In this document: positions 6,205 to 20,689 of the stretch, in pieces
Layout: each line of letters starts with the position of its first letter
Numbering within the stretch: the stretch's first letter is position 1
Source of the DNA: Chloroflexota bacterium
GTDB taxonomy: Bacteria > Chloroflexota > UBA11872
Direction: 5' to 3'
Length of the DNA stretch: 32,133 nt
Assembly: GCA_028874175.1 (NCBI GenBank)
Contig: JAPPLN010000092.1
Coordinates: forward strand, 1 to 32,133
Translations under genes and position numbers: made by a program
Notes under the pieces: generated by a model
Told to the model about the DNA's origin: nothing
The model's database searches: none
The model's input: only the letters and a program-made list of their open reading frames with translations

Positions 6205-7944
6205 ATGGCATCACGCCGCCGCAATGAGTCGATTCGGTACGAGCCCGACGAGAGGTGTCCGCCGTTGGTAGCCGTGGGCGTCGGCGCGCAGGGTGTGTTG
6301 CTGGTGCTGGCGCCGATTGTGTTGGTCGTGGCGGTGAGCGCGCTGGCGTCGGGGCAAGACGAGCGGTACCTGACGTGGGCCGTGTTCGCGGCGCTGGTTG
6401 TCAGCGGTTTGGTCACGATCCTTCAGGCAGCGCGGCTTGGGCGTGTGGGCCTGGGGCACGTGCTGGTCACGGGGGTTACCCCGAACTTCATCGCAGTCTC
6501 CGTCATCGCTCTCGCCGAGGGCGGTCCGGCCACGCTCGCGAGCCTGATTGTGCTCTCATCGTTCTTTTTCCTGGCGGTGGGCGCGTGGTTGCCGCTGTTA
6601 CGGCAGATCATTACGCCAGCCGTTTCGGGCACGGTCTTGATGCTCATCGCGGTGCTCCTGCTTCACATCTCGTTTGATCGGCTGCAGGAAGTGCCTGCAA
6701 ATTCGCCGGCGTTCGCGGGTCCGCTTGTGGCCGCGGTGACGCTGTCGGTCACGGTGGCCCTGGCCCTGCGCGGACCTCCGTTGTGGCGCATCTGGTCGCC
6801 GCTGATTGGAATCGGAGCCGGCTGCGCGGCAGCGGCTGCGTTCGAGCTCTACGACCTCAAGCTCCTGGGTCGAGCGGCATGGATAGGGATTCCGGAGCTT
6901 GGGTTTCCGGGCTTGGACTTGACGCCAACGCCAGGGGTACTGGCGCTCCTACCGATGTTCCTGGTGGTGACTCTCGTCCAGGCGATCAAGGCCATAGGCG
7001 ATGGAGTGGTGGTTCAGCAAGTCGGCCGGCGGCGGCCGCGGGCCACGGACTTTCGACTCATCCAGGGGACGCTGTACGCCGGCGGTCTGGGCATGCTCCT
7101 TTCGGGGATTGCCGGAACACCGCCTACGACCGCCTATTCGTCGTCCAGCGTGTCGCTGATCTCGCTTACTGGCGTAGCTGCGCGCCGTGTTGGCTACGCC
7201 ATTGGGGCAATTCTGCTGGTGCTGGCCGTTTTCCCGAAGCTCGGAGGCTTACTGCTCACCATTCCCAAACCGGTGATGGGCGCTTTCTTGCTGCTTGCCA
7301 TCGGGATGCTCTTCGTGGAGGGTCTGCGCACGGTAGCGCGGGGCGGGCTGGACGCTCAGACGGCCCTCGTCGTCGGGCTTGGCTTCGCAATTGGCGTCGG
7401 ATTCGAGCAGTACGACGTGTTCGACGGGATCGTGGGCCCTCCATGGAGTCTACTTTTAGGCAACGGAATAACCGCCGGCGCCGCTACCGCGATCGGCCTC
7501 ACTGCGTTTCTGAACCTCACGAAGCCTAAGCGGCAACGGCTCGTGGCCCGACTGGAAATCTCGGACCTGCCGCGAATCGACGCTTTCCTGCAAGCCGTTG
7601 CCGTGTCGATGAAGTGGAGTGACACCTCAACCGAACGCCTGCGCTCGGCGGGCGAGGAGACAGTTTCCAGCTTGCTTCGACCAAAAAATGAGGAGTCGAC
7701 GACTCGGGCATCGCGCCTGCTGCTAAGCGCGAGCCCCGAGGGCAGGTCTGTCGAGTTGGAGTTTGTGGCGGCTACCGACGAAGAGAACCTGGCAGACCAG
7801 TTGGCTTACCTGGCCGAGCAGGACCAGCTGCCAAATGAAGAAGAATTGTCGTTCCGGCTGTTACGGCACTATGCGTCGTCGGTGCGCCACCAGAAGTATC
7901 ACGGCCTGGACATCGTTACGGTCACGGTTGACGAATCGCCATAA
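6205..7944 (+). CDS. NCS2-family nucleobase permease with a C-terminal RsbW-like tail
   Basis: A 579-residue protein. Residues about 20-440 form the multi-helix transport domain of the xanthine/uracil permease (NCS2) family, recognisable from TPPTTAYSSSS in the substrate region and the AIGDG segment before it. Family members import nucleobases with protons. The normally present acidic or Asn residue in the (S/G)xN segment is serine here, so substrate is uncertain. Residues about 449-579 are a cytoplasmic extension that resembles an anti-sigma-factor type ATPase domain (AGEETVSSLL as N-box, a final FRLLRHYASS...DIVTVTVD), but without the ATP-lid glycines. The start codon at 6205 has only a weak ribosome site (GGGGTAGAAG). 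The gene converges on the hydrolase gene with 14 bases between. Confidence 0.82.
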   Translation: MASRRRNESIRYEPDERCPPLVAVGVGAQGVLLVLAPIVLVVAVSALASGQDERYLTWAVFAALVVSGLVTILQAARLGRVGLGHVLVTGVTPNFIAVSVIALAEGGPATLASLIVLSSFFFLAVGAWLPLLRQIITPAVSGTVLMLIAVLLLHISFDRLQEVPANSPAFAGPLVAAVTLSVTVALALRGPPLWRIWSPLIGIGAGCAAAAAFELYDLKLLGRAAWIGIPELGFPGLDLTPTPGVLALLPMFLVVTLVQAIKAIGDGVVVQQVGRRRPRATDFRLIQGTLYAGGLGMLLSGIAGTPPTTAYSSSSVSLISLTGVAARRVGYAIGAILLVLAVFPKLGGLLLTIPKPVMGAFLLLAIGMLFVEGLRTVARGGLDAQTALVVGLGFAIGVGFEQYDVFDGIVGPPWSLLLGNGITAGAATAIGLTAFLNLTKPKRQRLVARLEISDLPRIDAFLQAVAVSMKWSDTSTERLRSAGEETVSSLLRPKNEESTTRASRLLLSASPEGRSVELEFVAATDEENLADQLAYLAEQDQLPNEEELSFRLLRHYASSVRHQKYHGLDIVTVTVDESP

Positions 7945-7958
7945 GCTGCTCGCGAAGG

Positions 7959-8870
7959 TCAGGCGGTGCCAATCTGGTCCAGAAACTCACGCACAGACTC
8001 GGCGCACGCTTCGGGTTGTTCGAGCTGGAGGAAATGCGTGGTTTCCGGGAGAAAGTCGTAGTCAACCGTCAATACGTGGCTCAGGTCGAACGTTGGCAGA
8101 TACGAGTAGGGCAACGTCGGATCGGCTCCAACTACTTTGATTGGGCAGTGAAATGCGTCAAAGTCCACGAGCACGGCAAAGGCGCTGGCGTAGTCGACGA
8201 TTTGCGCTTCGTAGTCGCGCGGACAGCGCAGTTCATAGCCGTCGCGTTGTTTGCGCTCTCGAAGCGTCGTGCGCGCGGCAAGATCGAAGGTGCCGGGAAC
8301 CGAACGGTAAAAGGTCGGCACGAAGCTCAGGAGATCAGCGAACTGGTCGACGGACTGAAACAGCTCGGTGCGCCGCCTGGTCATCGCGGCGGTTCGCATG
8401 GCGGCGGCATCGAATTCCTCATAGCTGGCGCCGGGTCTGCACAGCGGGGGGTCAAACAAGACCAGCGCTGACAGACCGCTGCCCCTGGCGGGTGACAGCA
8501 GCGTTGTCAGCGCCGACACGGAATGAAATACGCCAGTCTTCGGCTTGTCCCCGAAGTTGGTATCAATTGCCTGCAGAATCCGGTCATGGTCGCGCACGAG
8601 AGTCGGCACGTTGTGGTCGGCGAGCGGACTGATGGCATTCCAGCCATGATTTCTGAGGTCGTAGACGACGAGATCGAAGTCGTCGGCCAGGAGTGACCAA
8701 AACGGGTAATAGAGATCGATCGCGAGGCCGTTCCCGTGGCTGAGAACGAGGCGTGGACCGGATGGATTTCCATGTCTCCGCACGCGGACGATGGTGTTTT
8801 CGTCAGCGCGTACTTCACAGACGGCCAGAGGCTCGGGGACTTCCCAGACGGGTTGTGCATCCGTGGTCAC
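7959..8870 (-). CDS. Alpha/beta hydrolase, last gene of the polyketide cluster
   Basis: A 303-residue alpha/beta-fold hydrolase. The oxyanion-hole motif SHGNG is at 44-48, the likely nucleophile is Ser117 in FHSVSA, and the likely catalytic histidine is His279 in ETTHFLQLE. The nucleophile elbow lacks both glycines of the usual GxSxG, which is uncommon. Translation starts at a GTG at 8870 behind a GGAGAAGG ribosome site. It is 108 bases downstream of the phosphopantetheinyl transferase and shares its direction. A role in releasing or trimming the polyketide chain is plausible from position alone. It could equally be an unrelated esterase. Confidence 0.82.
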   Translation of the reverse strand: MTTDAQPVWEVPEPLAVCEVRADENTIVRVRRHGNPSGPRLVLSHGNGLAIDLYYPFWSLLADDFDLVVYDLRNHGWNAISPLADHNVPTLVRDHDRILQAIDTNFGDKPKTGVFHSVSALTTLLSPARGSGLSALVLFDPPLCRPGASYEEFDAAAMRTAAMTRRRTELFQSVDQFADLLSFVPTFYRSVPGTFDLAARTTLRERKQRDGYELRCPRDYEAQIVDYASAFAVLVDFDAFHCPIKVVGADPTLPYSYLPTFDLSHVLTVDYDFLPETTHFLQLEQPEACAESVREFLDQIGTA

Positions 8871-8898
8871 AGCGTGGCCTTCTCCGGAAGTGGGACCT

Positions 8899-8914
8899 GC
8901 GATCGCTCGCGAGC
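8899..8914. repeat. Overlapping palindromes GCGATCGC and GCTCGCGAGC
   Basis: In the short spacer between the phosphopantetheinyl transferase and hydrolase genes, GCGATCGC (8899-8906) overlaps GCTCGCGAGC (8905-8914). Both are perfect self-complementary sequences. They may be an operator or restriction-type sites, or chance in GC-rich DNA. Confidence 0.35.
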
Positions 8915-8978
8915 GCGTAAGTGCGGGGGTGTTGCTCCGCGGAACCGTAATGCTATGCGTCGAGCGTTTCGTTCGCTA

Positions 8979-9710
8979 CTACTCAGCCGACATCAGGCTG
9001 TGACCAGGGTTCGTCTCAACCGCAACGGCGGCCGCAAACTTCTCGGTACCCAGGTCATTGACGCGCCATAGGCTTCGTGGCCGGTTTGGGAATCTTAGCG
9101 TTCCGGCTCTAGCGCCCCGGCGAACCGCGAGCGGCACTTCAAACTCGGCCGGGTCCTGCGAAAAACCGTGGCCGAGCGCCTTGATGAGGGCTTCCTTCAG
9201 CGTCCACATGCGATAGAAGAAATGTGTTCTTCGGTTTCCGTGAAGCAATACGAACTCGCGCTTTTCGTTCGGACCCAGCACGGCGTCGGTGAGGTCATTG
9301 AGGTCGTCGCGGGGGACTCGTTCCTCAATGTCCACTCCGATGCGCCCGCGCGGGGCGACGGCGATCAACCCGTGGCTGCCGGCGTGGCTGACGTTGAAAC
9401 CGACTGGACTCGGCGTCTCATCGACTCGAGCGAACGGTTTGCCATAGCTGGACGCGCCAAACGTGATCTGTTGGCCGTTACACGCGAGCCGATGACAGAG
9501 GACGGCCCGCAGGGCCGCGCGGCACAAGATAAACCGGCGTCGCGATCCGGCATGCAGATAACGACCGGAACGCACCCGTTCCTCGGCGCTCAGACACTCC
9601 AAGGCCCTAGCCTCATGCGCGGCATGGGGCAGAAGGTCAACGTAAAAAACCGTAGCCTCGGCGACTGACCTGAACGGCCGCCACCAGCGTCCGACCGCGG
9701 AGGAGCCCAT
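8979..9710 (-). CDS. Sfp-type 4'-phosphopantetheinyl transferase
   Basis: A 243-residue enzyme that moves the phosphopantetheine arm of coenzyme A onto the conserved serine of carrier proteins, converting them from apo to holo form in the cytosol. The signature motifs are all visible: YGKP at 89-92, FNVSHAGSHG from 105, GVDIE with metal-binding Asp127 and Glu129, and WTLKEALIKALG at 169-180. The length fits the Sfp/EntD class rather than the short AcpS class. AAAGGAG lies about 14 bases before the ATG. It follows the free carrier protein gene by 69 bases, so it very likely activates that protein and the carrier domain of the upstream synthase. Confidence 0.95.
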   Translation of the reverse strand: MGSSAVGRWWRPFRSVAEATVFYVDLLPHAAHEARALECLSAEERVRSGRYLHAGSRRRFILCRAALRAVLCHRLACNGQQITFGASSYGKPFARVDETPSPVGFNVSHAGSHGLIAVAPRGRIGVDIEERVPRDDLNDLTDAVLGPNEKREFVLLHGNRRTHFFYRMWTLKEALIKALGHGFSQDPAEFEVPLAVRRGARAGTLRFPNRPRSLWRVNDLGTEKFAAAVAVETNPGHSLMSAE

Positions 9711-9746
9711 GGTGGTCGTGGGCGCTCCTTTGCCAGCCCGACATGA

Positions 9747-9767
9747 GCGAGAGCCGGATGCTCTCGC
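9747..9767 (-). promoter_or_regulatory. Perfect 8-bp stem-loop between ACP and PPTase genes
   Basis: GCGAGAGC (9747-9754) and GCTCTCGC (9760-9767) pair perfectly around a five-base loop. It lies in the 69-base spacer between the carrier protein and the phosphopantetheinyl transferase. There is no following U-tract, so it is more likely an mRNA processing or stability element than a terminator. Confidence 0.45.
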
Positions 9768-9779
9768 AGGACTGTGCGG

Positions 9780-10025
9780 CTATGCGGCTTGCGAGTCGAT
9801 GTACGCCGCCAGGTCCTTCAGGGTGCTGAAGTCCGCACATTCGTCCGGGGTCAGCGGGACGTCGAACTCCCGCACGATCACCTTCGCAAACGCAACAAAG
9901 TCCATGGAGGGAACGCCGGCGTCGGTGAGGCTGACGTTCAAGTCGGCCGGCACGTTCACGGGCTGACCATCCACTTCAAGGTTTTCGGCGACGAGAGTTC
10001 TGAGGCGGTCTTCAGTCGAGGCCAT
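9780..10025 (-). CDS. Free-standing acyl carrier protein
   Basis: An 81-residue acidic carrier protein that would hold acyl chains as thioesters on a phosphopantetheine arm. The attachment serine is probably Ser40 in AGVPSMDFV, which fits the GxDSL position although Pro replaces the usual Asp before the serine. Helix-forming segments on both sides match the four-helix carrier fold in length and spacing. ATG at 10025 with only a weak upstream site. It lies 319 bases downstream of the synthase stop codon and just ahead of the phosphopantetheinyl transferase. The synthase ends in a KS with no carrier domain after it, so this protein is the natural acceptor for that terminal KS. Confidence 0.88.
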   Translation of the reverse strand: MASTEDRLRTLVAENLEVDGQPVNVPADLNVSLTDAGVPSMDFVAFAKVIVREFDVPLTPDECADFSTLKDLAAYIDSQAA

Positions 10026-10344
10026 GAGGGCAATTCCATCCTGCAGGGGCCAGACGGCCGTAGGGTTGGCAAGTCTAGCAGCGATGGTGCGCGATCTCTC
10101 GCGACAGCGCAGGCGCCGTGGTCGGCCTGGACTGCTTCAAAGCCACCACTACGTCCGAAACGGTTTGAGAGCGCCGGAATTGGGAGGTGGCCGGCGGGCG
10201 CGGGCGCCCACCCCAGGACGCGAACTGCCCGGCTCGGTCCGCGCGGGCATGACAGCAACGACGCGGCGACGATGACGTCCGGGCCAGGCAAGGCGAGTGC
10301 CCAGCGGATGCCTGACGAGCCCGGCTTGCCTGGCGCTACGAGGT
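10026..10344. other. 319-base spacer between the synthase and the free ACP
   Basis: This stretch follows the synthase stop codon (TAG at 10345-10347). Open frames here give proline-, arginine- and glycine-rich translations without domains. I see neither a decayed carrier or ketoreductase domain nor a clear terminator. It may hold a promoter for the free carrier protein, but none could be fixed. Confidence 0.5.
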
Positions 10345-13300
10345 CTAGACCCAATGGTGTCGCCGCTGGAAGGGATAGCTGGGCAGTGAAACCCGCCGTC
10401 GCGTTTCGCCCGCGAATAGGCCCGCGAAGGTGGGCGTAAGGCCAGCCTCATACGCGGCCGCAATTGCATCAACGAAGCCGAAGTCGGGCGATGGACCGTT
10501 GCCGGCGGGCCTCCGCAGCGACGTCAGCGCGACGGGGTCACGACGCGGCTCCGCGGCTGCCGAGGAGTCCGGCCAGGCTTCGATCACAATTGATCTGAGC
10601 GCGACGTCCGGACCTACCTCCACCACGACATCGCTGGCGAGGGCGGCGAGCGTCTCAACGCAGCGTGCGAACTCAACCGGCTCGCGTATCTGCCGATGCC
10701 AGTACGCGGCATCAAGCGCCTGGTCGGCTGCGACGACACGGCCGGTCGCGCTGCTGACCATGTTGAGCTTCGGGGAGCCGATCGACACACCGCGCAGAGC
10801 GGCGTCAAGGCTGCCTTCCAGGGCCAGGCCCGCACCCGGAAGCGCCGACAGCAGCGTGCCCCGGGCCAACGCAAAGCGGAGGCCGTCTTCGAGGCTGATA
10901 ACGCCGGCTGCTTGCGCGGCCGCGACCTCTCCAACTCCCTCGCCCACAACCACCGTCGGCCGGATTCCAATGCTGGCCCACAACGCGGTCAGCGCGCACT
11001 CCAGCGCGTAGACCGCCGGCTGTGCCCAACTCGGGTCATCCAGGTCGCTGGCGGTGGCTTCCCGACCAAACATGACGTCCAGCAAGGACGTGCCGCGCTC
11101 GTTACGCAGGACTGCATCGCAGTGGTCGAGTACCGCCCGCGCCACCGGCTCGCTCCGGTAGAGGTCCTGGCCCATGCCAACCCACCGGCTGCCGTGTCCG
11201 GAATACGCGAAGGCCACTCGGCGGGGTGATTGGGGCACTGGCTCCACGGTCGATTCCGCCAGTGCGACCAGCCTTTCCCGCAGGGACTCAGCGTCGGTAA
11301 ACGCCAGTCCCGACCTGAAGTCAAAGTGACTTCGCCCCACGCTCGCCGTCCAGGCCAGATCCGAGAGTTCGGCTCTCGCCGTCGCGTCCGGGGACTGCTC
11401 GTCGAACCACGACAGGTAGCGCTCCGCAACTTCTCGCAGTGCAACGTCTGACTTTGCTGACAGGGGGAGCAGTCGCGTATCGCGCTCACTCATTCCAGAC
11501 GTCGGCACCGGAATCCGGGCCAGGAGATCCGGCATGGACACCGGGACTGGCCGCGCGGCGCCCGCTGGAATACGGAGATCACGGTGCAGGACCGATTGAT
11601 TCTGCGGGGAGTCGTAGCCCTGGACGACGACGTTCGCATTCGTTCCGGACATACCGAACGCACTCACGGCCGCCACGGGTGGACGATCGGGCGCGGACGG
11701 CCACGGCGTGTCGCTCGCTGCCACTTGCACGGGCAATTGATCCCAGTCGAGTTGAGGGCTGGGAGTCTGAAAGTGCAGTTGCCGGGGAATCACCTGCTGC
11801 TGCATAGCCAGCACGGTCTTGATGAGACTGGCGATTCCGGCCGCCCACTCGAGGTGGCCGATGTTGGCTTTCACCGAGCCGATCAGCAGCGGCCGGTCCG
11901 GGTCGCGGTCCTGGCCATAGACGGTCGCCGCGGCCTGGACTTCGATGGGATCGCCGAGGGCGGAGCCGGCCCCGTGGGCTTCCAGATAGTCAATCTCGGA
12001 TGGATCAACGCCGGCCCGAGAAAGCGCGTCTTTGAGCACCTGTTCCTGGGCTGGACCGTTCGGAACCGTGAGGCCGGCGCTCGCGCCGTTCTGATTAATG
12101 GCAGAGCCGCGGAGCACACCCCAGATCCGGTCACCGTCCGCTTCGGCATCGCGCAGTCGCTTGAGCACGACCATGCCGCAGCCGTCGCTGCGCACGAAAC
12201 CGTCGGCTGCCGCGTCAAACGTCCGGGAACATCCGCTGTTCGACAACATGCCCAGGTCATTGAGGAAACGCGTGATTCCGCGGGACAGGGGTACGTTGAC
12301 CCCGCCAACCAGCGCCATATCTGCTTCCCCACGCTGCAGGCCGGCAACGGCCTGGTGCACCGCGACCAGAGACGACGCACAGACCATGTCCAGCGGCATG
12401 GCGGGCCCCTCCAGACCAAGGACATACGACAGACGTCCAACGGTCATGCTGCCGGCGGTGCCGACGAAACTGTCCTCCTCACCGCTGGCGAGGATCAAGT
12501 CTCTGTACTCGTTGCCGCCAACGCCGATATAGACCCCGGTCTTACTCCCTCGCAGTCCGTCGGGATCGATTCCGGCATCCTCGAGCGCGTGCCAGGTGGT
12601 TTCCAGCAGTAGCCGCTGGCGTGGATCCATCAGTCGCGCTTCGATTGGCGCAATGCGGAAGAAGCGTGAGTCGAACCGCTCGATGTCGTCCAAAAAGGCA
12701 CCGCGACGGAAGACGGGATCCTCGCCGGCAGGGTCGCCAAAGGCTCTGTACCAAGTACCGGTGTCCTGGCGTCCGTTTCTTACCGAATCCACACCAGCCT
12801 TCAGCTGTCGCCAGAAGGCGAGCGGGTCATCCGCGCCCGGGAAACGACATCCCATGCCGATGATTGCAATGCCATCGTCCGCGGCTGCAGCCCGCGGCCG
12901 GGATTCCGTGGCGACCACCGTTGGCAAGGGCGGGGTCTCGTCCGCCTGGCCGAGTTCTCCGACCAGGTGCTCGGCAAGGGTCTCGATGTCCGGATAGTCG
13001 AATACCATCGTGTTGGACGCGGTGTAGTCGCCGGCAAACGCGCGGTTGAGGCGATTGCGTAGCTCCACCGCCATCAAGGAATCCATCCCCAGATCGAAGA
13101 ATCCGACCGTGGGTGCCGGCGCTGTGGATAGACGGAGGACGGCCTGTACCTCTTGCTGTAGGAAGGACGCCATCACCTCCTGATGCTCGGCCGGAGGCGC
13201 ACTCCGTAACCGCGTGAGCAGGTCTTCGGATTCGGCCGCGGCGTCCATACCGTCGTCGGAGGCGGACGACAGCAGATCCTCGAGGAAGGTTGGCCGATCC

Positions 13301-13404
13301 TCGACGGCCTCTTCGAACACCGACCAATCCATCGACATCACGACGGAGGCCGTGGCGTCCTGGCGTACCAGCCGTTCAAGGACCTTGATGCCTTGCTGGG
13401 GGGG
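10345..13404 (-). CDS. Polyketide synthase, 3' part: ACP-KS-degenerate AT
   Basis: Continuation of the synthase in the next reading frame after a C7 run. About 1,017 codons start with [12 protein letters not shown], the normal end of a KR-to-ACP linker. The ACP domain (about 13190-12945) has its attachment serine in GMDSLMAVEL, codon 13078-13080. A second KS (about 12880-11615) keeps Cys (codon 12379-12381, DMVCASS) and both histidines (EAHGAGS, NIGHLEW), so it should be able to hold and transfer a chain. The AT that follows (about 11230-10570) is broken: the nucleophile motif GHSVG reads GEGVG, GQGSQ reads GHGSR, and the small subdomain with the second histidine is missing. The protein ends in the post-AT linker (LPSYPFQRR). 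No second carrier or release domain is present in this chain. Confidence 0.88.
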   Translation of the reverse strand, partial: PPQQGIKVLERLVRQDATASVVMSMDWSVFEEAVEDRPTFLEDLLSSASDDGMDAAAESEDLLTRLRSAPPAEHQEVMASFLQQEVQAVLRLSTAPAPTVGFFDLGMDSLMAVELRNRLNRAFAGDYTASNTMVFDYPDIETLAEHLVGELGQADETPPLPTVVATESRPRAAAADDGIAIIGMGCRFPGADDPLAFWRQLKAGVDSVRNGRQDTGTWYRAFGDPAGEDPVFRRGAFLDDIERFDSRFFRIAPIEARLMDPRQRLLLETTWHALEDAGIDPDGLRGSKTGVYIGVGGNEYRDLILASGEEDSFVGTAGSMTVGRLSYVLGLEGPAMPLDMVCASSLVAVHQAVAGLQRGEADMALVGGVNVPLSRGITRFLNDLGMLSNSGCSRTFDAAADGFVRSDGCGMVVLKRLRDAEADGDRIWGVLRGSAINQNGASAGLTVPNGPAQEQVLKDALSRAGVDPSEIDYLEAHGAGSALGDPIEVQAAATVYGQDRDPDRPLLIGSVKANIGHLEWAAGIASLIKTVLAMQQQVIPRQLHFQTPSPQLDWDQLPVQVAASDTPWPSAPDRPPVAAVSAFGMSGTNANVVVQGYDSPQNQSVLHRDLRIPAGAARPVPVSMPDLLARIPVPTSGMSERDTRLLPLSAKSDVALREVAERYLSWFDEQSPDATARAELSDLAWTASVGRSHFDFRSGLAFTDAESLRERLVALAESTVEPVPQSPRRVAFAYSGHGSRWVGMGQDLYRSEPVARAVLDHCDAVLRNERGTSLLDVMFGREATASDLDDPSWAQPAVYALECALTALWASIGIRPTVVVGEGVGEVAAAQAAGVISLEDGLRFALARGTLLSALPGAGLALEGSLDAALRGVSIGSPKLNMVSSATGRVVAADQALDAAYWHRQIREPVEFARCVETLAALASDVVVEVGPDVALRSIVIEAWPDSSAAAEPRRDPVALTSLRRPAGNGPSPDFGFVDAIAAAYEAGLTPTFAGLFAGETRRRVSLPSYPFQRRHHWV

Positions 13405-16400
13405 TAAACCAGCGGCCGCCGAGTGCAGCCCGGCGCCGCTCGATTCGCTCCCGTTGCTCTGCGGCTTCACCGATCTCTGACCACGCGCCCCAGGCAATGG
13501 CCTGGCCTGGGAGTCCGAGGGCACGCCGGTGACCGGCCAGCTGGTCCAGGAAGGCATTGGCTGCGGCATGGTTGGCCTGGCCGGGATTGCCCATGACGCC
13601 GACCCGGCTCGAGAAGAGGACGAAGAGATCCAGATCGCGGTTCTGCGTTGCACGGTGCAGGTGCCACGCCCCCAGGATCTTTGGCCAGAGCACCTGCTCG
13701 AAGCTTGCCCATGTCTGATTGGTGAGCGCGGCGTCCGAGAGCACGCCCACGCTGTGGATAACGCCACCGAGCGACGGCAGCGTCGCGTCGATTCGCTCCA
13801 ACATCCGATCGATCGCCGCGGGGTCGGTGGCATCCGCGAGTTCAACTTCAACCCGGACTCCGCGTCCGCGCAGCACATCAATGGCCGCCTGAGCCTCAGC
13901 ATCCGGGTCGCGGCGGCCGTTGAGCACGATGGCACCGGCGCCGTGATCAGCCAGCCAGCCGGCTACGGCGCATCCGATACCGCCGAGGCCGCCGGTCACC
14001 AGGTAGGTTCGATCCTGCCGAAGGCGGCCGCCGACGATTGGCGGGGCCGTCAAGACGATCTTGCCCACGTGCCGAGCCGAACGCATGAAGTCCAGGGCAG
14101 CTCCGGCCTCGGCCAGGGGCCATCGACTATGGATGATGGGCTTCAGGACGCCTGCCGCGAGCTGCGCCATCACGTCGCGCAGAACTTCGCCGACCCAGCC
14201 CGGATCGGTCTTTTTCAGAACGTCCAGTTCCAGAATGTCGTAGGCGACATCCGGACGTACAGCCGCCATCTCGTCCTCGGTCAGGATGTCGCGCCTGGCC
14301 AGTTCGACGAATCGACCACCACGGGCCAGGCAGGACAGGCTGGCCTCGATGAAGCCCTCGCTGGTGAGGCTGTTCAGCACCACGTGCACGCCCTTGCCGC
14401 CGGTGGCTTCGAGGATTTCCTCGCCAAAGCTGGTCTGGCGGCTATCGAACACGTGCTCGACGCCGAGCGAGCGCAGAAGCGCCTGCTTGGGAGCGCTGGC
14501 CGTGGCATATACCTCCGCCCCCGCCGCCTGAGCCAACTGGATGGCCGCGAGGCCGACTCCGCCAGCGCCGGCGTGAATCAGCACGCGTTCGCCAGCTTCC
14601 AGCCTCGAGTACCGGTAGGAGAGTGCAGCCGAGACGAACGCGCTGGGGATGGTGGCGAGGTCCGAGACCGACATTCCTTGGGGAGCCGGCGCCACCAGTT
14701 CCTCGCGGGTGACCATTTCCGGGCCGAAGGCGCCAAAGCCCAGTCCAACCACGTGGTCGCCGACGTTGACGGTCGAGACCTCTGAGCCGACATCGAGAAC
14801 GTGACCGCACATTTCCCGGCCGAGATCGCCCTCCTCGATAAACCCGAGCGAACGGAAGACATCCCAGAAGTTGAGGCCGGCGGCCTGGACGGTGACGCGA
14901 ACTTCCTTCGATTCGAGGGTGCGTCCAGGAAGTTGCTTGATCTCCGGTTGATCGAACACGCCGCTGCGGTCCGGTGCGAGGACCCACGACGAGTCGTCCG
15001 GCAGCGCAAGCCGCCGGGCCGCGGCCTCAGGCCGAACCAGGCGTGCTCCAAGGCGGCGCCCGGAGCGGTAGGCGATGTGGTTTTCCTGATCGGGATACAT
15101 CAGCTCGTTCACAAGGTCAGCCAGCAGGGGTGGGGCATTGGGTTCCACGTCGATCATTCGCGGCTGTAACTGGGGAGCCTCCAGGGCAACGACTTTCCCC
15201 AGCCCCCACAGGACGGCGCCGGAGATCTCTCCCATGCGTTCCCGCTCCAGAATCTGCGCTCCGCGGGTTACGAACCAGAGGCCGTTGGCAGGAAGGACGT
15301 CAGCGTCGGCAACGCCCTGCACCAGGGCCAGCGCACTCGATCCGGCGCGGCGCACGTCCTCTCCAATTTCGTCGGTGGTTGCCAGTGAGCCGTGGCCGTC
15401 AAGCGCTTGAAGGTGTACGACCCCGTTGAATGGGATATCCCGAGGCAGTTCCTCGATCAGCGACTGCCACGAGTCACGACTCTCGGTGTCCAGCACGGGT
15501 CGGAGAATCGCGGGGCTGTCTGTCGCAGGCTTGCCGGCGGCCGACGCTTCGGCGTTTGCCAGTACCACCGTCTGATTGCGCGCGGACATCTCCGCCGCGA
15601 GTTCCTCCGCCACGCCACCTCTGTCGGCTGTAAGCACCCAGACGCCCGGAGGCTCCGCCACCTGCGCCGGTCCCCGCGCCACGATGACGCCTTTGTCCAG
15701 GGTCTGGGTCGAGTCAGACTCGTCGACCCCAAGGACTTCAACCTCCTCAAAGCCCGAGTCACCGAGCGCCTGGCGCCAGACCGGGGGGCCGGCCAAGGCG
15801 TGGTGCGGGCGGTAGTCGTCGGCAAATCGCCACCAGCCGTCCAACTGGCCGAATGTCAGGTCCATCCAGCCGACGCCGCTGAGGTTCTCGAGCGCGATCA
15901 GTTGCCCGGACGGCGCAAGCAGATCGCGGCAGTGCCCCAGCGTTTCCTCCAGGTAGCGCGTGGCGTGCAGCACGTTGGAGGCAATGAGCAGGTCGTAGCC
16001 GTGCCGATCGAAGCCCTGCGCGATGGGGTCGCGCTCGATGTCCAGCGGACGGTACGCAATGCATCCGTCGCCATCGCCGAAGCGCGCCTCGGCCTCGGCG
16101 AAGAAGCCCGCGGAAATGTCGGTGTAGGTGTAGTCGAACCGACCCGTTGGAAGCTCGGGAAGCACGGAAGCGGTCGCAGACCCTGTACCGGCCCCGACTT
16201 CAATTACTCGAAGCCGCCGTCCGTCGGGCAGCGCGGCGACTAGTGGCTGGATCGCGTCGGCCAGCATTCGGTTTGCGGCGCGCGCGACGGGCGCCTTCAA
16301 GTAAAGATCGGCCGCGGTCGGTTCGCCGCTGCTGAATAGGAGCGTCAGCGGATCGGCCTGGCCGCGGAGAACCTCGGCCAGCGCGCGGCCAGACCGTCGG

Positions 16401-19400
16401 AACAGCCCGATTTCGGTCTGGCCATCCGGGTACAGGTCCATCATCCGGTCGGCGAAGTCTTCGAGATCGCCCGGCATGCGGTCCGGCAGCGGATCGTCCG
16501 GACCCACGATTACCGTGAAGCCGCTATCCGTCTCCTCCACGACACCTGACCTGGTGAGCATTTCGAACATCCGGCGAAAGACACGTTGGTGTTCCGGAAG
16601 AACGTCGAGCTGTGGTCGCAGGGCTTCGGGATCCACGGTTTCGCCGACGATCCGCTGCCACCCCAATTCCTCCAACGTGGCAAGCGCGCGTGAGCGCGAC
16701 CACCGCTCCAGGTCGGCTAGCAGCGCGTTTCGGCCCTGAGGATCGACTCCCGCGTCGGTCAGATAGCCGGTGAACAGCTGCGTCCTGGCGGCTATCTCGG
16801 AAGGCCCTGGGAAGAAGTCTGCGGCTTCGATTCCGGGCGGCAGTTCACGTTCGCGCCAGGCCACTTCGTACAGCAGGTCATCTATGCCCTCGACCGCCGA
16901 AAGGAGCGCTGCCCGGGTGGCCCGCTTGACCGTGTATCCGGTCAGGCCACCGAGGAGCACGCCGTTGGGATCGTAAATGCGGAGTTCGCCGCTCAGGACT
17001 TCCGGCGGCTCACTCGACTCTGACTCCCTGGAAGTCTCATCCATGAATACGTGGCAGAAGACTCGATCTGGCAGATGTCGCGTCAGCCACATCCGCTCCC
17101 AGCCGAATGGGAGATAGGTTGCCTCGCCGGGAGCGCCGGACATGTTGCGGGCCAGGCCAACGACCTGGAAGCAGCCGTCAAGCACGAGCGGGTGTATGTC
17201 CAGGTCGTTACGGCCAACGGGATCGGGCAGGCGGACTTCAGCCAGGGCCTCACCCGGACCAGACCAGGCATTCTCCAAGGTGCAGAAAAACGGACCGAGA
17301 TCGATCCCAGTGCTTGTCTTGGCCTGGTAATACGCCGGCACATCGGCCGGCGAAAGACGCGACTTCAGCTCTTCGAGATCGACCCGATCGACGCCTTCGG
17401 GCAACGGGGCGACCGCCGGCACTCGGCCCTCCACGTGCAGCGTCCACTCCTCGTCACTGCCCTGGCTGTAGATCTGGATTTCCCGCGACGACGATTGCTC
17501 GGCAGCGTCGAGAACGACCTGCATCTTGCGGCCTTCCTCGCCTGATCGGTCCTCGGAACTCTGGTCGGAAAAGACCATGGCGCTGTGCAGTTGCATGTCC
17601 TCAACGACCAGCGCGCCGCTGCCTTCGACCTGCGAGGCCGAGGCCGCCATGGCGGCGTAGAGGGCGCCGGGAGCCACGAGGCGGTTGAAAACGCGATGGT
17701 CATTCAGCCACGCTGGATCCGACGGAAACACTTCCGTTTCGAACGTGACTTCACCGCGAGCGGACTCGTGGCGGATTCCCAGCAGGGGGTGACCGGCGGA
17801 CAGACCCCGTTGCCTGGAGGGTTCCAGCCAATGGCGGCGGCGTTGGAATGGATAGCTGGGCAATGAGATCCGGCGCCGGGTTTCTCCGGCAAAGAGCCCC
17901 TCGAAGGAAATCTCCAGCCCGGCCGCGTAGGCCTCCGCCACGGCGTCGGTGAAGCTGCTCTCCGCTTGCGGACTCGACGCATCCCGTGGCGGCCGCCGCA
18001 GGCTGGCGAGCACGCGTGGGGCCTCGGCAACATCCTGGCCAGACGCCGGGTCGGGCCAGGACAGCGTCGTCATGGGGCCGAGCACCGCGTGCGGACCTAT
18101 CTCGATCACGAGGTCGACGCCGAGATCCGCCAGCGTCCGTACCCCACTGGCGAATGCCACGGGCTGCCGGGCGTGCCGCCGCCAGTAGGCGCTGTCGAGC
18201 GTGGTGCCGGGCTCGACCGTCCGCCCGTTCAGGTTGCTGACGAGGGGCACATTGGGAGGCTCAAATGCCACACCGCGAAGGGAGGCTTCCAGCGTGGCGA
18301 CGGCTGGTTCGACCAAGGCGCTGTGAAACGCGCGGGTTGTGTTCAGCCGTCGTACCCGGATGCCCTGTGACTCAAAACGCTTCGAGATGGTCTCGATGTC
18401 CGCAGCTGTACCGCTCACCACCTGGTGGGCGCCGTTGTCGGCCGAAACGCTCAAACCAACGTCATCGGATGCCGCGTTTGCCTCCGCAACCGCTGACGCG
18501 ACGAGTGCCGGAGGCGCGAAGACCGCGGCCATGGCGCCGAGCGGTGTTGCCGACAGCAGGGCGCCTCGGGCCGCCGCGAACCGCATCCCGTCTTCCAGGC
18601 TGAATACGCCGGCCGCCTGCGCCGCTGCCAACTCGCCGACGCTGTGCCCCATGACGACGTCGGGTTGGATGCCGACGCTGGACCAGAGGGCGGTCAGGGC
18701 GCATTCCAGCGCATAGAGGGCGGGCTGCTCCCAAGCGGTGTCGCCCAGTTCGCCCGTTGCTCCGGGCCTCCCGAACATCACGTCCAGCAGCGAGGCCCCG
18801 CGCTCTTTTCGGAATACGGCCTCGCAGCGGTCCAGCACCGATCGCACCGCGGGCTCGGTCTCGTAAAGGTCCTTGCCCATGCCGAGCCACTGGCTGCCCT
18901 GACCGGTGTAAGCGAAGGCCACCTTGGTCACCGCCCGAGGCTGTCCACCTGGACCGGCCTCGGCCACGGATCGGAGTTGCTCCCGCAATGACGTGGTGTC
19001 GCTGAATACGGCGCCGGACCGATGCTCGAGGTGGCTCCTTCCGATGCCGGCGGTCCAGGACATGTCCGACAGAAGCGGATCCGAGGCGGCATCCTCAGCG
19101 GCGAGTGTCGCGGTCCGTTCGTCGAGCCATGTCAGGTAGCGCTGTACAAGTGCACGGAGAGCTTGGTCTGACTTGCCCGAAAGTGGCAGGAAGCGATCCC
19201 GTCGCTGAGCGAGATGCTCCTCGGGCCGCGCTTCATGGGGCATCGGTACGGCCACCGTCTGCGGAACGCCTGCCATCGGCGACTCTTGATCTGGCGCGCC
19301 GTCAAGCCCGCGATACTCCTCAACCAGGATGTGGGCGTTCGTCCCGGAAATGCCGAACGAGTTCACGCCGGCCAAACGTGGCCTTCGATAGCCGTCCGGC

Positions 19401-20689
19401 CAGTCCGACATTTCCGAGGTGATCCGGATCGGGAGGTGGTCCCAGTCAAGCGCCGGGTTGGGATTGTCGAAGTGCAGGTGCTTCGGGATCAGACCGCGAT
19501 TCACAACCAGGGCAGCCTTCATGAGCCCAGCGACTCCGGCGGCGGACTCCAGGTGCCCAATGTTGGTCTTCACGGATCCAATCAAAAGCGGATGGTCGGC
19601 CGCGCGTTCGCGGCCGTAGACGCTGGCCACGGCATCGATTTCGATGGGATCGCCGACCGACGTTCCGGTTCCGTGCGCTTCCAAGTAGTCGACTTCCGAG
19701 GCGGCGACACCGGCTTGAGCGAGCGCTGCTTCAATGACCTGTTCCAGCGCGGGCGTATGCGGAACGGTTAGACCTGTGCTCGCCCCGCCGTGGTTCACGG
19801 CCGAGCCGCGGATGACTGCCCAGATCCGGTCGCCGTCGGCTTCGGCCTCGCTCAGCCGCTTGAGAACGACGACCCCGCATCCTTCGCCGCGGACGTAGCC
19901 GTTGGCGGACGCGTCGAAGGCCTTGCACTGCCCGTCCGGGGACAACATCATCGAATCGGCCCGAAGCTCGTAGATGCGTCCATTGAGGATCGCCTGAACG
20001 CCGGCCGCAATGGCAAGGTCGGCCTTCCCGTATTGGAGGTCCGACACGGCGTCGTGCACTGATACGAGGGACGATGCACAGGCAGCGTCCACCGCCTTTG
20101 CCGGGCCCATAAGACCCAGGACGAATGAGACCCGTCCGCTGGTGCCGTTCAGATTGGTGCCGCTGAGGGCGTAGAGGCAGCCAGCGGCTTCGGTTGGCCT
20201 CACCGAGTCCACGACCAACATTCGGTATTCGTCGTTGCTGATCCCGGTGTAGACGCCGGTTCGACTGCCCTTGAGCCGATCGGGGTTGATTCCCGCGTCT
20301 TCGAGCGCCAGCCAGGTCGTCTCCAGCATCATGCGCTGCTGCGGATCCAGCAGTTGCGCCTCGACCGGTGAAATGCGGAAGAACTCGGCGTCAAACTGGT
20401 CCAAGTCCTCGACAAAGGCGCCGAATCTGCATGCCTCGCTCCGGACACGATCGTCCGGGAAGAGCTCGCCCATTCGTCCGACGCCGGAGCCCGGATCTCC
20501 CTCGCTGACCGCGTTCTCGCCGGCTTCCAACAGGCGCCAGAATTCAGCCACGCTCGACGCCCCAGGGAAACGGCAGGCCATGCCGACGATTGCGATGGGT
20601 TCCACAGCTTGAGGAGGTGGTTGGCTCCGACCGGTTGTCGGAACGGGATCCTCAGCAGTCAGCGCAGCGTTCTTGGCTCGCTTAGTCAT
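13376..20689 (-). CDS. Type I polyketide synthase, 5' part: KS-AT-DH-cMT-ER-KR
   Basis: 2,437 residues before the frameshift. KS 31-460 has Cys204, His339 and His379. AT about 588-900 has GHSVG with Ser683 and AFHS at 787-790, pointing to malonyl-CoA. DH about 965-1255 has His998 and Asp1171, although Asn1002 replaces the usual glycine. The C-methyltransferase, about 1440-1660, has the SAM motif [12 protein letters not shown] structural KR-like part precedes the ER at about 1915-2215 ([13 protein letters not shown]). KR about 2225-2425 has TGGLGGIG. In the KR active site His2374 stands where Tyr is expected (GQANHAAAN); this variant occurs in other synthases, so I do not call it dead. This set would add, fully reduce and alpha-methylate acyl units, most likely iteratively, giving a methyl-branched chain. 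No loading module or docking region precedes the KS. The true protein, with the next part, would be about 3,447 residues. Confidence 0.93.
13398..13404 (-). other. C7 homopolymer frameshift site in the synthase gene
   Basis: Seven C residues on the coding strand separate two frames of one continuous synthase. Removing one C joins the frames as [14 protein letters not shown], the usual linker sequence between KR and ACP. As written, the first frame stops after PARHQGP at 13376. The cause may be a homopolymer sequencing error, a true inactivating insertion, or ribosomal or polymerase slippage on the C run. An error is the simplest reading because both halves are otherwise intact. Confidence 0.85.

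Follow-up and report, generated by a model that had tools for sequence, protein, structure and literature searches.

Organization of the locus

The window analysed here, a stretch of 32,133 nucleotides, is one contig (C53) of a 3.3 Mb genome that is distributed over 121 contigs and estimated to be 92% complete. A polyketide synthase (PKS) is encoded on its minus strand as two overlapping open frames, at 13376-20689 (ORF1) and 10345-13935 (ORF2). Three genes for a free acyl carrier protein (ACP), a phosphopantetheinyl transferase and an alpha/beta hydrolase follow it, all on the minus strand and thus in the same direction, as described in an initial annotation of the sequence. The domain order proposed at that time, with a second ketosynthase (KS) and a degenerate acyltransferase (AT) directly before the stop, was confirmed by Pfam: KS-AT-DH-cMT-ER-KR are found in ORF1, and ACP, KS2 and AT2 in ORF2, which then ends. 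The features are as follows:

13376-20689, minus strand: ORF1 of the synthase, KS1-AT1-DH-cMT-ER-KR (open frame and Pfam)
19466-20602, minus strand: KS1, HGTGT intact (PF00109, PF02801)
18077-18916, minus strand: AT1, with intact active-site motifs GHSVGE and AFHS (Pfam and motifs)
16904-17791, minus strand: DH (Pfam)
15899-16204, minus strand: C-methyltransferase, cMT (Pfam)
14051-14911, minus strand: ER (Pfam)
13475-14008, minus strand: KR, with His in place of the catalytic Tyr (codon 13568-13570; Pfam and alignment)
13398-13404, minus strand: homopolymer run, frame break between ORF1 and ORF2 (reading frames)
10345-13397, minus strand: coding part of ORF2, comprising the end of KR, ACP1, KS2, AT2 and the stop (Pfam)
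12964-13164, minus strand: ACP1, in cis (PF00550)
11770-12873, minus strand: KS2, with Cys at 12379-12381, His at 11974-11976 and His at 11854-11856 (Pfam and alignment)
10348-11211, minus strand: AT2, dead, with GEGVGE at 10927-10944 and the small subdomain deleted; ends with the post-AT linker
9780-10025, minus strand: free ACP, carrier Ser in GVPSMD
8979-9710, minus strand: 4'-phosphopantetheinyl transferase (PPTase), open frame with an uncertain start
7959-8870, minus strand: alpha/beta hydrolase with conserved HGNGLA, HSxSA and a late TH
6205-7944, plus strand: permease (PF00860), adjoining the cluster and recurring beside related clusters

Near the contig edge, at 1703-2581 on the plus strand, there is also a gene of the Antibiotic_NAT Pfam family (aminoglycoside 3-N-acetyltransferase). 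A KS family search of the source genome returned nothing beyond KS1, KS2, a single stand-alone KS and a weak partial match.

The synthase had initially been taken for a single continuous protein. Its domain order stands, but it is not one open frame in the window: the frame breaks near 13,400, within the homopolymer run at the end of KR. The frame of ORF2 extends up to 13935, but it is genuine only downstream of the homopolymer, where coding begins at about 13,395. The frame is uninterrupted at this site in the eight nearest of the matches listed, and intact copies therefore exist; a single open frame from KS1 to KS2 is present in 55 of the 68 loci that include KS1 and broken in the other 13. 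The break in the window may represent either a sequencing or assembly error or a recent mutation, two alternatives that look alike in the sequence.

Related loci

A peptide-pattern scan of bacterial and archaeal genomes yielded 82 confirmed matches, of which 80 were kept, corresponding to 79 distinct loci. Going by record titles, these belong to metagenome-assembled genomes (MAGs) of about nine phyla, and the six best matches are MAGs titled Chloroflexota or Chloroflexi. As the initial annotation had suggested looking for, the same domain order is found in related genomes: a KS2 match lies at most 1.5 kb after ACP1 in all 79 loci, and this conservation excludes a chance origin of the arrangement. 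The result was checked for sampling bias. Since the only scan pattern carried by 61 of the 79 loci lies upstream of KS2, these loci were not selected for having KS2.

Complete KS2-AT2 ends are available for 63 loci and the window (n=64). The remaining 16 loci, where KS2-AT2 is incomplete through contig-end cuts, frame breaks or, in L051, L054 and L061, larger losses, were left out of the AT2 counts. The window might have held a truncated copy of a synthase whose relatives possess a full second module, as had been considered at the outset; no such module is present in any of the 64 complete ends.

The terminal ketosynthase

In the window KS2 keeps its Cys, both His and the Lys. The initial annotation had concluded from the intact triad that KS2 is probably still selected, and had regarded triad loss in close relatives as a sign of decay. 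Both points were resolved in favor of retention. The Cys is present in 79/79 loci; the first His is retained in 75, replaced by Asn in 3 and unreadable in 1, and the second is His in 75, Arg in 1 (L076, which appears to have a frame break inside KS2) and unreadable in 3, i.e. the two His are kept in 75/78 and 75/76 readable loci, and KS2 is under purifying selection (see section on selection). Close relatives show no triad loss; only one distant group of three loci, L027, L057 and L080, with Gemmatimonadota or Gemmatimonadetes titles and an otherwise identical synthase end, has Asn at the first His. The first His is typically absent from non-elongating KS domains in trans-AT systems, whereas it is present in 75 of 78 readable KS2 and in the window. 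The HGTGT motif of KS2 is altered, its second Thr being replaced by Ser in 61/64.

A rooted tree was built from 27 KS1 and 27 KS2 sequences (26 of the 79 loci and the window), using the stand-alone KS of the source genome as outgroup. KS1 and KS2 each form a clade, with support of 1.0 and 0.97, and the doubling is therefore old and single within the tree set.

The terminal acyltransferase

Over 723 aligned columns, KS2-AT2 shares 52% identity with KS1-AT1. The view that AT2 is dead is fully supported. In the window, GEGVGE is found where AT1 has GHSVGE, so that the nucleophile Ser is lost, and roughly 75-80 residues including the catalytic His are gone. AT2 is broken in all 64 complete ends: the span of the small AT subdomain comprises 0-28 residues, compared with 84-111 in the 64 AT1, and the nucleophile Ser is present in 64/64 AT1 vs 1/64 AT2. 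The sole AT2 with Ser, that of L022, is also devoid of the small subdomain. In each of the 64 the protein ends 0-22 residues past the post-AT linker motif; L051, L054 and L061 also reach this linker, with still larger losses.

An AlphaFold2 model of KS2-AT2 has a mean pLDDT of 75.9 (59 to 76 among five models). Its best structural match is the CurL KS-AT didomain (TM 0.76 by query length). Among KS-AT didomains such as those of CurL and DEBS module 3 the model is thus closest to CurL, but AT2 is without the small subdomain and the nucleophile. Because AT2 is constrained despite its missing catalytic residues, it is likely to serve as a structural body or docking surface. A possible DH relic after the stop was considered and discarded: it scored p 0.03 against shuffles in the window, but p was at most 0.05 in just 7 of the 64 ends, and the matches were mostly to other parts of DH.

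The ketoreductase

In an alignment covering all 79 loci, the position of the catalytic Tyr of KR is occupied by His throughout, encoded by CAC in 42 and CAT in 37. The Ser, Lys and Asn, which we take to be the rest of the active site, are retained in 79/79. The best solved sequence match of KR, mycocerosic acid synthase (MAS), has Tyr at the aligned position. KR is nonetheless under strong constraint (dN/dS 0.03-0.10), so that either His replaces Tyr functionally or the reducing loop may be silent.

Partner genes

A profile search found the free ACP in 54/79 loci, and a loose carrier-Ser motif is present in 55 of 56 free-ACP stretches including the window, the exception being one of two pieces from L076. 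The hydrolase is present in 57/79 loci, the PPTase in 32/79 and the permease in 43/79. Free ACP and hydrolase occur together in 51/79 loci, at most 2 kb apart in 46 of these 51. Neither is found in the examined stretch of 19/79 loci. Although several of these stretches are truncated, at least 6.9 kb of sequence follows the synthase in 10 of the 19, and close linkage of the partners is therefore not universal.

Where the examined stretch lacked a partner, the whole genome was searched in 15 cases, including those of the 10 loci just mentioned. A strong hydrolase match was found in 14, and the same 14 have a free ACP match (weak in G005, G012 and G013). The remaining genome, G011, gave no free ACP match and a weak hydrolase match, possibly owing to genome incompleteness. 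With both partners held by 14/15 genomes, the partners can evidently be positioned after the synthase, before it or elsewhere.

Among 24 genomes of the order, KS2-AT2 is present in 20 and the hydrolase in exactly those 20; the odds of identical sets arising by chance are 1 in 10,626 when kinship is ignored. Two genomes of the same genus, G022 (76% complete) and G033, are without both the synthase end and the hydrolase in this search, which suggests a joint loss.

A model of the hydrolase has an alpha/beta hydrolase fold (pLDDT 86), and its first Foldseek match is the curacin thioesterase, amid many generic alpha/beta hydrolases. It is the probable releasing enzyme. Two paralogues are encoded in the source genome, at G000:C21:42319-43200 (57% identical) and G000:C34:33289-34170 (56%). 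No ketosynthase was found on their contigs, and inspection of their surroundings, made without a family search of the frames, gave no functional clue.

When neighbouring genes were grouped into families over 80 stretches (79 loci and the window), the most frequent were the hydrolase (54), the permease (42), the PPTase (26) and the free ACP (20), the last being undercounted since short frames are under-called. No other family occurs in more than 11/80 stretches. Eight of the rarer families were annotated with Pfam as a repeat protein, an ABC transporter, a sulfatase, a sugar-type dehydrogenase, a penicillin amidase and a redoxin, with two giving no match. Among the neighbour families, with these eight annotated, no recurrent loading enzyme (ligase, acyltransferase or malonyl loader) was seen near the cluster. 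A large protein with leucine-rich and bacterial Ig-like repeats lies beside the cluster in 8 loci (e.g. L027:13582-16626), mostly with Gemmatimonadota titles.

Selection and co-divergence

dN/dS was measured against 11 near loci (10 for the hydrolase and the PPTase), leaving out the KS1 value of L002, which reflects a cross-match to KS2. Values are 0.04-0.15 for KS2, 0.18-0.22 for AT2, 0.10-0.22 for AT1, 0-0.14 for the free ACP, 0.03-0.10 for KR, 0.04-0.13 for the hydrolase and 0.18-0.31 for the PPTase. KS2, AT2 and the free ACP are under purifying selection.

Co-divergence of the partners with nine domains of the synthase was analysed in the 41 of 79 loci that have all domains, with the free ACPs of L057 and L076 dropped. 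The divergence of the free ACP tracks that of KS2 best (r 0.74, rank 1 in 159/200 resamples), compared with r 0.33 for KS1, and that of the hydrolase tracks AT2 best (r 0.81, rank 1 in 172/200). When the other domains are factored out, the free ACP is assigned to KS2 in 98/200 and to AT2 in 79/200 resamples, and the hydrolase to AT2 in 199/200. DH also scores high for both partners, so that co-divergence counts as support and not as proof. Taken with its distribution, the free ACP is supported as a real, constrained and co-inherited partner of the synthase. In the same 41 loci KS1, MT and ER diverge unlike the other synthase domains and the partners, as if they had been exchanged or homogenised between lineages.

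A proposed split terminal module

The best explanation, to which we give a probability of about one half, is that of a terminal module that is split and conserved: the chain would pass from ACP1 to KS2 and on to the free ACP, to be released by the hydrolase. Anatomy, conservation, selection and co-inheritance of its parts are observed, and every catalytic step is one that we infer. Judged by its domain content, the first module would build a methyl-branched acyl chain iteratively on ACP1. The synthase would then end in a half-module, KS2 with the dead AT2 as structural or docking body, and the free ACP would provide the missing half, an ACP, in trans. KS2 would take the chain from ACP1 onto its Cys, as any downstream KS does, and pass it to the free ACP, either in a final decarboxylative condensation on malonyl-ACP, which we slightly favor, or by simple transfer. 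For condensation to occur, an AT acting in trans, possibly AT1 or the cell's own malonyltransferase, would have to load malonyl onto the free ACP. The alpha/beta hydrolase would finally release the chain from the free ACP.

The initial annotation had proposed that KS2 takes the place of a thioesterase by handing the completed chain to the free ACP. The hand-off itself gains from the conserved KS2, the lack of a second module and the constrained free ACP. A bare transfer does not fare as well, and a final condensation would be at least as likely, because both His of decarboxylative condensation are kept (75/78 and 75/76 readable). The idea that KS2 stands in for a thioesterase is weak, as a conserved alpha/beta hydrolase co-travels with the synthase and could itself be one. 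Several observations speak against the split module: the replacement of His by Asn in L027, L057 and L080 argues against an obligatory condensation in those loci, no malonyl-loading gene was seen to recur nearby, 19/79 loci have neither partner in the stretch, and the PPTase is present in only 32/79.

It is possible, though rather doubtful, that KS2 is a pure (non-elongating) transacylase, which would move the completed chain onto the free ACP and add no carbon. KS2 has neither an active AT nor an ACP behind it in cis, bare transfer requires nothing further, and the Ser in its HGTGT motif and the Asn in the three-locus group fit as well; however, nearly every readable KS2 retains the Lys and the two His, and bare transfer would not obviously preserve both of these His. 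A loading system would likewise be consistent with the set of free ACP, hydrolase and PPTase: the free ACP would deliver a starter unit to the synthase, the hydrolase would act as an editing thioesterase and KS2 would have another role. No recurrent ligase or acyltransferase gene was seen that could fix the direction. Since the divergence of the free ACP follows that of KS2 more closely than that of KS1, we consider starter delivery unlikely.

Release by bond formation to a nucleophile not on an ACP has been proposed for some terminal ketosynthases, and the terminal position and conserved Cys of KS2 are in keeping with it, but no partner gene for such a reaction was seen to recur nearby and the free ACP and hydrolase would be left unexplained, which makes it improbable here. 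The constraint on an AT2 without catalytic residues could also indicate that KS2-AT2 is only a scaffold, e.g. a dimerisation end; given the active-site Cys in all 79 KS2, this too has a very small chance of being correct. A decaying, truncated second module, to which the broken AT2 and the still larger losses in L051, L054 and L061 might point, is rejected in view of the identical end in 64/64 complete ends, the purifying selection and the separate KS1 and KS2 clades.

Within the preferred split-module reading, a more specific proposal can be put forward tentatively. The dead AT2 might have become a docking platform, bringing KS2 together with the free ACP and a dedicated hydrolase, so that the chain would be finished off the synthase, with His acting in place of Tyr in KR.

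Relationship to known systems

MAS and related iterative reducing PKS make methyl-branched acyl chains, in the case of MAS with branches that come from methylmalonyl units. The synthase described here is likewise a reducing PKS, and its KR has MAS as best solved sequence match; it differs from MAS in possessing a methyltransferase domain, a second KS and dead AT after the ACP, and His for Tyr in KR. Some trans-AT PKS modules contain AT-docking remnants and non-elongating KS. The succession of a KS and AT remains, with other parts supplied in trans, resembles these modules. In contrast to them, the present synthase has an intact AT1 in cis, an AT2 whose large subdomain is preserved and the first His in 75/78 readable KS2; nor was a recurrent separate AT gene seen nearby.

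The synthase most likely belongs to the SupA family ("sponge symbiont ubiquitous PKS"), an assignment that is strong by context and made independently of a comparison with named SupA sequences. A methyltransferase is part of the original SupA definition, and the complete reducing module KS-AT-DH-MT-ER-KR-ACP found here is fit for methyl-branched chains. In the passages that deal with it, sup is described as a type I PKS that is dominant and diverse in sponge metagenomes, unusually small and mono-modular, with mid-chain or methyl-branched fatty acids as proposed product (PMC4245539, PMC3908369). In a table of PMC3908369 a permease named SupE is listed for a sup clone. A permease adjoins the window cluster too and is present in 43/79 loci; by its description, as opposed to a sequence comparison, the window permease (6205-7944) is possibly SupE. 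Unlike the synthase found here, sup is presented as mono-modular in those passages of PMC4245539 and PMC3908369, which mention no terminal KS-AT, free ACP or hydrolase. In the accessible parts of the literature on sup and on sponge branched fatty acids no description of a terminal KS-AT was found, although the founding papers of 2007 and 2010 may draw it.

The hosts of the related loci appear to be sponge-dwelling bacteria. Sponge hosts in a list in PMC8163846 have initials matching the bin names RHO, COS and IRC, and these bins presumably come from those hosts. SwfA, a second sponge-specific PKS, is reducing and widespread in sponges (PMC3908369). It differs from the present synthase in that it is listed there as KS-AT-DH-ER-KR-ACP only, with a reductase-sulfotransferase protein and with no methyltransferase or second KS (PMC3908369).

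Implications for the sup family

Sup synthases are reported to be the dominant PKS in sponge metagenomes, and in the part of that report concerned with their product a product class is proposed and no release route is given (PMC4245539). Candidate parts of the last step can now be named: KS2-AT2, the free ACP, the PPTase and the hydrolase. Because two likely partners lie outside SupA, sometimes elsewhere in the genome, SupA expressed alone may fail. If the dead AT2 is indeed a docking platform for the free ACP and hydrolase, the dominant PKS of the sponge microbiome would finish its chain off the synthase.
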